Positions 1-3,294 of a stretch of 64,000 nt of DNA are shown here, in pieces (position 1 is the stretch's first letter; every line of letters starts with the position of its first letter). The translations under genes and the position numbers were made by a program. Under the pieces are notes generated by a model. The model did not search any database. It was not told where the DNA came from and saw only the letters and a program-made list of their open reading frames with translations. The stretch comes from Burkholderiales bacterium (lineage in GTDB: Bacteria > Pseudomonadota > Gammaproteobacteria > Burkholderiales > SG8-41): assembly GCA_019635015.1 (NCBI GenBank), contig JAHCAG010000008.1:62001-126000 (forward strand), read 5' to 3'.

Positions 1-692
1 GCAGGTTTGCCGGTTGCGGGATGGATACGTACCAGCGGATGCGCCGGACCCGGCACCTCCTCGGGTTTTGTCGGCATTTTCACCGTCGGACGCAACACTC
101 CGGCGCTGTTGCGGCTGGCATCGTGAATCTGCGAACGCCCCTTGATTGCCACCTTGAGGTCGGCCGGCAGGTCCTCATAGGCCTTGTACTGGTTGTTGAA
201 CCAGGTATCGCCACCGCCGTTGGTCGGGATGACGATCGAATACAGCATGCTGCCTGCCGGCGGCACTGCGACGTAGGAATTGTCGCTGTGCCAGACCACT
301 TCATAGCTGCCCAGTCCGCCGTTGTCCTTGACCGGGTTGCCGTCTTCATCAAGATTGCTGATCAGGCTCAGGTGCGGATGCAGTGGCACCATCCTGCCGC
401 CGATCCTGTAACCACCGGCCACCTGGTATTTGCGCGCGGCCGGTTCCTTGGGTGTGCCGAAAATACCTGCAGCCGCCAGAAATGCCTCGTCGGGCAGTGT
501 TTGTTTGCGCCAGAACAGCACCAGATGATCAGACCAGGCCTTGCGTAGCAATTCGCGCGTAGCGTCAGGGACCGGCTGTGACAGGTCGACTCCGCGGATC
601 TCGGCGCCCAGCGCTGCGCCGCTGGGGATGACCTGCAACTGCTCCGGCTGATTGACGGCATTGGAGCCTGCTGTGCGTTGCGCTGATTTCAT
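1..692 (-). CDS. TauD/TfdA-family Fe(II)/2-oxoglutarate dioxygenase, 3' end cut off by the window
   Basis: Reading leftward from ATG at 692 the frame stays open to position 1, giving 230 residues with the C-terminus outside the window. The sequence has the family N-terminal pattern (GAEIRGVDLSQP, then LVLFWRKQTLPDEAF) and the first two metal ligands as H135-x-D137 in VVWHSDNSY. The distal His and the 2-oxoglutarate-binding Arg would lie beyond the edge. Start choice: GAGGAG lies 8 nt before 692; an in-frame ATG at 698 is too close to it. The family hydroxylates small substrates such as taurine, sulfonates or aryloxyalkanoates; the substrate here is unknown. A palindrome at 880-900 lies in its upstream region. 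Confidence 0.85.
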   Translation of the reverse strand, partial: MKSAQRTAGSNAVNQPEQLQVIPSGAALGAEIRGVDLSQPVPDATRELLRKAWSDHLVLFWRKQTLPDEAFLAAAGIFGTPKEPAARKYQVAGGYRIGGRMVPLHPHLSLISNLDEDGNPVKDNGGLGSYEVVWHSDNSYVAVPPAGSMLYSIVIPTNGGGDTWFNNQYKAYEDLPADLKVAIKGRSQIHDASRNSAGVLRPTVKMPTKPEEVPGPAHPLVRIHPATGKP

Positions 693-930: not shown

Positions 931-2187
931 TTATCCCAGGCCGGTGAACGCGAAGTCCACGTCGGGGCGCCGCCCGGAAACGATATCGGCAATGGCCTTC
1001 CCTGAACCGCAGGCGTGGGTCCAGCCCAGCGTGCCGTGTCCCGTGTCGAGAAACAGATTCGGATAGCGCGTGGCGCCAATACAGGGCACGTTTGAAGGCG
1101 TCGCCGGACGCAGCCCGGTCCAGAACTGCGCGCTCGAGGCATTACCCGCACCGGGAAACAGCGACTCGACGCGCCGCAGGATGGCGCGGCAGCGTGTCTC
1201 GTTGAGCGCGGTATCGTAGCCGTTGAGCTCGCAGGTGCCCGCGATCCGCAGCCGATCACCGAGGCGCGAAAACACCAGCTTGTATTCGTCGTCAGTCAGG
1301 CTCACCGTATGAGCACGCGCCGGATCAGCCACCGGCATCGTCACCGAATAACCCTTGGCCGGATAAATGCCCAACCGTATGCCCAGAGGCGCGGCAAGCG
1401 CTGTGCTGTAGCTGCCCAGCGCAAGGACATAGGCATCAGCCTTCATCAGGCGCGAACCCTCGCGATCACGCACCCGCACCCCTTCGATGCGTTCACCGGC
1501 TGTCTCCAGCGCGAGGATCGTGGTGTCATAGTGGTAGCGCACCCCGCGCTGCGTGCACAGCTCCGCCAACCGCACCGTGAACAAATGCGCGTCACCGGAC
1601 TCGTCCGATGGGGTCAGGCTGCCGCCCGCAAGCCGGCCACGGGCCGAGGTCAGCGCCGGCTCGATCGCGACGCACTCGTCTGGCGTTTTCATCTCAAGCT
1701 GGCAGCCGAACTCGCGCATGATGCGTGCCGGCTCCTGCGCAGCATCGAATTCCTGCTGACTGGTATAAAAATGCAGGATGCCGCGTTCCAGATGGTCGTA
1801 GCGAATAGCAGTTCCGGCCCGCAAGTCCTGCAAGGCGTGGCGGCTGTACAAACCGAGATTGACGATCTGGGCAATATTGTGACGGGTGCGCCCTGGCGTG
1901 CATTCGCGCAGGAAATCCAGACACCAGCGCAGTTGCGCCCAGTCCGGACGCGGGCGGAACAGCAGCGGCGCGTCCTCGCGGAACAGCCACTTCAGCACCT
2001 TCAGCGGCGCCGAGGGATTGGCCCAGGGTTCGGCATGGCTGACGGAAATCTGCCCGCCGTTGGCAAAGCTGGTTTCCAGTCCGGCGCCGGGTTGACGATC
2101 GACAACGGTGACTTCATGACCGGCGCGGTTCAAAAACCACGCCGCCGCGGTGCCGACAACGCCGGCGCCGAGCACGATGACTCGCAT
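931..2187 (-). CDS. dadA: DadA-type D-amino acid dehydrogenase (FAD-dependent), under glycine riboswitch control
   Basis: This 418-residue flavoprotein belongs to the DadA branch of the DAO family. It opens with the FAD-binding Rossmann motif VLGAGVVGTAAAWFLNRAG, then VVDRQPGAG and the family block ETSFANGGQISVSHAEPWA. The C-terminal flavin segment WTGLRPATPSNVPCIG...NLFLDTGHGTLGWTHACGSGK is intact. Length matches the family (about 410-435). DadA proteins deaminate D-amino acids and pass electrons to the respiratory chain at the inner membrane. The leader carries a tandem glycine riboswitch, so glycine or a glycine-related amine may be the physiological signal or substrate (inference). ATG at 2187 has AGAGG 5 nt upstream; that site can be sequestered by the riboswitch. 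Confidence 0.88.
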   Translation of the reverse strand: MRVIVLGAGVVGTAAAWFLNRAGHEVTVVDRQPGAGLETSFANGGQISVSHAEPWANPSAPLKVLKWLFREDAPLLFRPRPDWAQLRWCLDFLRECTPGRTRHNIAQIVNLGLYSRHALQDLRAGTAIRYDHLERGILHFYTSQQEFDAAQEPARIMREFGCQLEMKTPDECVAIEPALTSARGRLAGGSLTPSDESGDAHLFTVRLAELCTQRGVRYHYDTTILALETAGERIEGVRVRDREGSRLMKADAYVLALGSYSTALAAPLGIRLGIYPAKGYSVTMPVADPARAHTVSLTDDEYKLVFSRLGDRLRIAGTCELNGYDTALNETRCRAILRRVESLFPGAGNASSAQFWTGLRPATPSNVPCIGATRYPNLFLDTGHGTLGWTHACGSGKAIADIVSGRRPDVDFAFTGLG

Positions 2188-2192
2188 GATGG

Positions 2193-2279
2193 CCTCTCAG
2201 GTCCATGACGGACTCGAACAGTGAGTTAGCAGACAGGGATTACTCCCCGCGCCGCCCTCCCTGTCCGTTTACCTGAGAG
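2193..2279 (-). promoter_or_regulatory. Expression platform of the dadA riboswitch: SD-sequestering pairing and an intervening hairpin
   Basis: On the minus strand the 3' conserved strand of aptamer 2, CTCTCAGGT (2279-2271), is perfectly complementary over 9 nt to ACCTGAGAG (2202-2194), which contains most of the dadA Shine-Dalgarno AGAGG (2197-2193). Between them lies an 8-bp hairpin (2232-2239 with 2258-2265) with no following U-run, so it is not an obvious terminator. The simplest reading is an ON switch: with glycine bound, the 3' strand is locked in P1 and the ribosome site is free; without glycine it pairs with the SD. The complementarity is seen; the mechanism is inferred. Confidence 0.6.
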
Positions 2280-2457
2280 TTTTACAGGCCTCGGCCCGCG
2301 TGCCCCTTCGGTGGATCACCGCAGCTTCGGGTGACCGCTCTCCAGATCGGCTGTACCACCCGCAGTATGTTTGCCTGAGCGATCATGAGGGATTGCGCCT
2401 TCGGCGGAATCACGAAGAAGCACGATGTGCCGCCTTCGCAACTCACTCTCCTGCGAG
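2258..2457 (-). ncRNA. Tandem glycine riboswitch (gcvT-type RNA), two aptamers
   Basis: The reverse complement contains two gcvT-type glycine aptamers in series. Aptamer 1 (about 2457-2365) has GGAGAG, then CCGAAGGCGCAA, then CTCAGGCAAA. Aptamer 2 (about 2345-2258) has GGAGAG, CCGAAGGGGC and ACTCTCAGGTAAACGGACAG. These are the conserved blocks of the class in the expected order and spacing, with a short linker as in known tandem forms. The RNA lies in the leader of dadA, after the 3' end of the MOSC gene. Glycine riboswitches usually raise expression of glycine-catabolic or transport genes when glycine is abundant. Confidence 0.92.
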
Positions 2458-2502: not shown

Positions 2503-3294
2503 TCATGGAATCAGGCCGACACTGTCTCCAACACACACCTCGCCACCGGGACCGTGCGTAAGCATGCCTACGCCCAGCGTTGATTGCGCCTGGTTGAAAC
2601 TCTTCATGAGGCCCTGCATCACCTGCAGGTCGCGCTCACCGGTGTCGGGATTCGCATGGGTGGCGAGGCAGCGCGTCTTGGGCTTGACCACGTCCATCGA
2701 GACTCCGCCGATGCGCAGTCGCCTGCCCAGCCACGAGAGCTCCTCCCAGGCCACAACGCCCTCGATCACGATGTTGTGACGGAAGCGGTGTTCGCTCAAT
2801 CCGGAATCGCCCAGCGCCGCTGCGGCCGAGGCCAGGGTCTCGCGGCTGTGCAGCGTCACCTGACCCGCTTCGTTGTCCTGGTAGCGCGGTGTGACGCCGT
2901 CGCCCACGAGCTTCAGTGGCAGGCGTTCGGAATGACCCTTGAGCGGATTCTCGTCCTGCCCCAGCACGTATTCGGTCAAGGCCTCGACAATACGCTGCCG
3001 GCCCGGCCCCTCGACGGACTCGTCGACCAGCACGCGCTCACCCAGCGCGATACGCAGCTGCCGGCCTTCGTGGTCATAGCGGGTCTGCAGCCGCGCGAGG
3101 CCCGGGGTGTTGGCGAGCACCACGCCCTCGTACTTGCGGCACCAGCGGTCGTCCGCTACCGGCGCGTTGGCAAAGCGCAGAGCCAGCACGCGATCGCCGG
3201 CCACCCGGCCTTCGGGCAGCACGGTCAGCGCGCTGCAATGCTCGGGCGTAAAGCCCTTCAGGGGATAACGGTAGAGAGCGACTACTTGTGGCAT
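2503..3294 (-). CDS. MOSC domain protein with N-terminal beta-barrel domain
   Basis: This 263-residue protein starts with the MOSC N-terminal beta-barrel pattern (VVALYRYPLKGFTPEHCSALTVLPEGRVAGDR...LRFAN) and continues into a MOSC domain. The conserved Cys that binds sulfur or molybdenum cofactor lies in VVKPKTRCLATHANPDTGERD, which fits the family. MOSC proteins are related to the Moco sulfurase C-terminus and to the mARC/YcbX/YiiM reductases acting on N-hydroxylated compounds. No FeS domain is fused here, so it is a simple two-domain form. It lies upstream of the dadA riboswitch in the same direction but seems an independent unit. Confidence 0.8.
   Translation of the reverse strand: MPQVVALYRYPLKGFTPEHCSALTVLPEGRVAGDRVLALRFANAPVADDRWCRKYEGVVLANTPGLARLQTRYDHEGRQLRIALGERVLVDESVEGPGRQRIVEALTEYVLGQDENPLKGHSERLPLKLVGDGVTPRYQDNEAGQVTLHSRETLASAAAALGDSGLSEHRFRHNIVIEGVVAWEELSWLGRRLRIGGVSMDVVKPKTRCLATHANPDTGERDLQVMQGLMKSFNQAQSTLGVGMLTHGPGGEVCVGDSVGLIP

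Follow-up and report, generated by a model that had tools for sequence, protein, structure and literature searches.

The dadA gene on the minus strand of the window, the whole 64-kb stretch of DNA analysed here, is preceded by a tandem glycine riboswitch, which is very likely to act as a translational ON switch. Two aptamers, two mutually exclusive pairings of one strand of the second aptamer, and a predicted OFF fold common to 11 leaders have been computed, and they describe a device in which glycine probably turns dadA on. Judging from its sequence, the leader would be a standard tandem glycine riboswitch, putatively glycine-binding, with both the RNA and the mechanism being of known kinds.

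A first-pass annotation of this DNA had proposed two gcvT-type glycine aptamers on the minus strand before dadA, to be checked by a covariance search with the Rfam model RF00504. Both aptamers have been recovered, although this particular search reveals only the first one. Aptamer 1 (2463–2353, minus strand) scores 52.1 bits (E = 8.1e-08), well above the RF00504 gathering score of 32 bits. Aptamer 2 (2354–2251, minus strand) displays the GGAGAG, CCGAAGG and CTCAGG core motifs of the RF00504 gcvT element but, in contrast to aptamer 1, it falls below the Rfam threshold, the sole Rfam match at this position being RF03166, with 19.1 bits. It is recognized by a held-out covariance model, R1, built on ten relatives with the window sequence left out (108.9 bits, E = 6.2e-28). 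In the clade model, the P2 and P3b helices of aptamer 2 covary, with compensatory changes at seven pairs and a covariation score reached by none of 500 shuffles. The two aptamers adjoin and have one expression platform in common, as is characteristic of a tandem arrangement. The entire leader extends from about 2463 to 2188, so that the interval 2193–2457 initially delimited begins slightly inside the element. The 2.89 Mb genome, that of an uncultured Burkholderiales bacterium and 80% complete, yields no other RF00504 match.

The link between aptamer and gene expression would lie in the P3/P3a helix of aptamer 2, the predicted glycine pocket (ACC/GGU, GA/UC and GGG/CUC). According to the RF00504 consensus, its 5′ strand is ACCGAAGGGG (2303–2312, minus strand), which is invariant in ten relatives, and its whole 3′ side is CTCTCAGGT (2279–2271, minus strand). 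This latter segment is also exactly complementary to ACCTGAGAG (2202–2194, minus strand), the strand that covers the dadA ribosome-binding site, where the Shine–Dalgarno (SD) motif GAGAGG (2198–2193) stands 5 nt ahead of the ATG at 2187. Since CTCTCAGGT makes up the entire 3′ side of P3/P3a, pocket and SD helix are mutually exclusive in the predicted structures, the same nine nucleotides pairing in one or in the other. Within the 64 kb, ACCTGAGAG is found on the minus strand only at 2194, and once on the plus strand, where it corresponds to the complement of the aptamer.

Folding calculations show the SD buried by default. In the unconstrained ensemble, the mean unpaired probability of GAGAGG is 0.067 and the OFF pairs mostly reach 0.9–0.97, with values of 0.58–0.97 per pair for ACCTGAGAG itself. 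In the minimum free energy fold, the sequestering stem is lengthened by CGGACAG (2261–2267, minus strand), which shares nucleotides with the 3′ side of P1 in aptamer 2 and pairs with CTGTTCG (2221–2215), and it includes a spacer hairpin (2223–2259, minus strand) showing compensatory changes at alignment columns 41–43/53–55. The fold of the 2290–2158 region has a z-score of −2.85, and none of 200 shuffles is equally stable. When aptamer 2 P3/P3a is imposed, GAGAGG is partly freed, its unpaired probability rising to 0.54; forcing both P1 and P3/P3a in ViennaRNA yields a poor fold, with a value of only 0.26, and such energies, derived from secondary-structure models, are a rough guide only.

The following scheme can be proposed. 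At low glycine, CUCUCAGGU, which supplies the 3′ strand of the pocket helix in aptamer 2, would pair with ACCUGAGAG over the dadA SD, the stem would be lengthened by CGGACAG/CUGUUCG and the spacer hairpin, and translation of dadA would be blocked. At high glycine, aptamer 2 would fold with the help of aptamer 1, thereby drawing CUCUCAGGU into P3/P3a and freeing the ribosome-binding site. The SD-sequestering ON design put forward in the first-pass annotation, as a prediction, is well supported by the sequence, by the folding and by conservation in relatives.

Regulation might alternatively be mainly transcriptional, through intrinsic or Rho-dependent termination, the SD pairing then being secondary. 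In the window's bacterial family, the gcvT leaders L007, L011, L015 and L020 indeed carry terminator-like GC-rich stems ahead of U-rich tracts. In the dadA leaders of Limnobacter and Cupriavidus (L093, L096, L097, L104, L049–L053), an SD complement accompanies a U-tract hairpin, which suggests that these are under control at both levels. However, neither a terminator-like site nor a U tract is found on the minus strand of the window between aptamer 2 and the ATG, and a T6 tract is present there in only 5 of 66 relatives. Termination as the main mechanism is thus considered unlikely, and translational control is retained as the preferred reading.

Further insights were obtained by comparing the leaders of close relatives. 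In this family, dadA is found behind tandem aptamers in the window's genus, and a second genus contributes two further genomes with this arrangement. Each of the 11 same-type leaders examined folds individually into an SD-sequestering stem, the ten relatives having diverged spacers, variable in length as well as in sequence, and the helix is found unprompted by RNAalifold. Conservation in homologous dadA leaders, which had been suggested as a check, is indeed observed, the 9-nt pairing being kept in most same-type relatives: the exact complement measures 9, 12, 7, 7, 9, 8 and 9 nt in L001, L003, L005, L006, L008, L009 and L010, respectively. Local variations include G–U replacements in L005 and L012, a register moved by one nucleotide in L034 and L035 (ACCTGGAGA, with one bulged base), and a weaker pairing in L006 and L014. 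Covariation lends no support to the SD helix within this clade, where the aptamer side never varies, which makes the test uninformative. Swapping the SD windows among leaders likewise makes no difference (−17.8 kcal/mol for own and −17.4 kcal/mol for foreign windows), as expected with a nearly invariant aptamer strand. At one locus, L033, the 700 nt ahead of a same-type dadA (protein identity 76%) contain no glycine aptamer core; the element has apparently been lost there recently. This metagenome-assembled genome is labelled Bordetella parapertussis and looks like a misnamed bin, as also for L036.

Could the aptamers be genuine and the 9-nt complement a coincidence? With purine-rich SD sites and an aptamer strand rich in CTCTC, some complement is expected, and many other Burkholderiales dadA leaders have no significant one. 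Against this, among 1872 unrelated SD-like windows just 5 show an exact complement of at least 9 nt to the aptamer 2 segment, as do 2 of 3000 dinucleotide-shuffled leaders, and most relatives, despite the divergence of the spacers, retain ACCT (2202–2199), which lies outside the minimal SD. The complement initially reported over the dadA ribosome-binding site is exact as well as rare by chance, and a fortuitous origin appears very unlikely. An OFF switch, in which glycine binding would expose another SD-blocking element and repress dadA, has precedents in the tandem glycine OFF riboswitches of sodium-alanine symporters (discussed in PMC13104608), but it is the least probable reading, since dadA is catabolic, as are the targets of known ON switches, and since the SD partner is the pocket strand of the aptamer itself, so that glycine-stabilised folding competes with SD pairing.

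The translational ON switch preferred here would add dadA to the genes under this mode of control by tandem glycine riboswitches. A scan of a genome collection, made with a dadA alignment, detected glycine aptamer cores upstream of 66 out of 80 dadA loci, a proportion that is no unbiased frequency because these loci are the closest relatives by sequence. The aptamer-bearing loci include Variovorax, Acidovorax, Cupriavidus, Limnobacter, Polaromonas and Rubrivivax, and no core was detected at the Marinobacter dadA loci of the scan. On the dadA tree, the distribution of aptamers requires at least seven gains or losses. The platform varies: only 25 of 73 Burkholderiales dadA leaders have an SD significantly complementary to the aptamer 2 segment and own pairs are no stronger than swapped ones, which indicates that the SD-pairing platform is not universal. 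Variovorax uses TCAGGTACC/GGTACTTGA, Limnobacter and Cupriavidus the two elements mentioned above, and in other leaders no platform was found.

The association reaches beyond a single type of enzyme. A second DadA subfamily, NF009074 (PRK12409), also lies behind tandem glycine aptamers (L002, L021), and another divergent DadA, at L004, which is likewise preceded by a tandem pair, has an 11-nt SD complement, GTTCCTAACAG, to a different stretch of aptamer 2. These divergent proteins (genomes G066 and G025) show 37–38% identity to the window DadA. That aptamers recur in front of two DadA subfamilies suggests a place in glycine metabolism for some genes annotated as D-amino acid dehydrogenases. 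The recurrence of glycine aptamers before dadA seems to have been little noted: dadA was not found as a glycine-riboswitch target in the portions of the literature searched, and a prior listing is possible in supplementary regulon tables, which lay outside the scope of this search.

The regulated gene itself (931–2187, minus strand) encodes a 418-residue protein of the FAD-dependent D-amino acid dehydrogenase family. It matches PF01266 and belongs to the DadA subfamily NF001933 (519.4 bits for a cut-off of 383), and its score for the glycine oxidase ThiO (TIGR02352) is 128.5 bits, below the cut-off of 250.8. By eye, its neighbours are a MOSC-domain protein upstream (2503–3294, minus strand) and a TauD-like dioxygenase fragment downstream (3–660, minus strand), because of which dadA looks monocistronic.

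What this DadA does with glycine can be approached through the glycine cleavage system. Neither gcvP nor any over-cut-off gcvT is present in the seven same-genus dadA-riboswitch genomes tested for both, some of which are 99% complete. Malate synthase A is present in such genomes, being split over two contigs in the fragmented genome of the window. Within the family, a single one of the 13 dadA-riboswitch genomes has gcvP, compared with 27 among the other 61 (p = 0.014 by Fisher's test, a statistic that ignores phylogeny). On a wider scale no association is seen, with gcvP in 26 of 37 genomes with the dadA riboswitch and 6 of 12 without (p = 0.30); absence of the cleavage system was thus rejected as a general explanation of the dadA switch, the link vanishing across Burkholderiales. 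A GcvH match is found in 74 of 74 genomes, including G000, where no recognisable gcvT or gcvP accompanies it, so that GcvH alone is no sign of the system. Such a GcvH, retained without gcvP and gcvT and away from other glycine cleavage genes, is observed at G000:C42:104044-104409 (in L111) and in L112, perhaps for lipoate metabolism.

Since members of the genus have the switch and lack gcvP, the regulated DadA may, on genomic grounds, be a glycine-oxidising route; its role would be to help remove glycine, or amino acids whose levels rise together with it. The use of glycine by DadA is favoured by the aptamers found on two DadA subfamilies and by a lineage without gcvP or true gcvT, and it is possible as well that glycine signals a surplus of serine or alanine. 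For E. coli DadA, a KM above 500 mM and a kcat/KM of 0.275 per M per s for glycine, a very poor glycine oxidation and a preference for D-serine over glycine are reported (PMC9436414); these are the only kinetic data found, and they describe another enzyme than the window DadA. A more speculative proposal, which we regard as rather doubtful, is that DadA, under riboswitch control, serves as the main glycine degrader in this and related lineages devoid of the glycine cleavage system, acting as a glycine:quinone oxidoreductase to give glyoxylate, then converted to malate by malate synthase A. If true, glycine riboswitches would mark a Burkholderiales DadA family retuned to glycine.

Compared with the system of E. 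coli, the DadA proteins have the NF001933 subfamily in common and are 43% identical over 412 residues. The genomic context is different: dadA is followed by dadX in E. coli, unlike the main gene clusters downstream of the relatives' dadA, which by eye show no dadA-dadX alanine operon, a candidate organisation that was accordingly set aside. E. coli also gave no match in the RF00504 control search, unlike the genome of the window.

The closest mechanistic parallel is the gcvT riboswitch of Neisseria gonorrhoeae, in which nucleotides of aptamer 2 P3a, P3 and P1 occlude the start region, a repression that is relieved by mutations (PMC13104608). Both systems have two aptamers, a single platform and a translational ON design (predicted in the window), and in both, for the window again as a prediction, low glycine leaves strands of the aptamer 2 pocket and of P1 paired with the sequence immediately before the start codon. 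The gonococcal element differs in that it controls gcvT-gcvH, through another platform sequence, and was established by mutagenesis, whereas the window switch is a computational prediction. The gcvT riboswitches of the window's own family also place tandem glycine aptamers before a single gene. One family thus has stems of two kinds as platforms, terminator-like ahead of gcvT and SD-sequestering ahead of dadA, which makes it useful for platform comparison.
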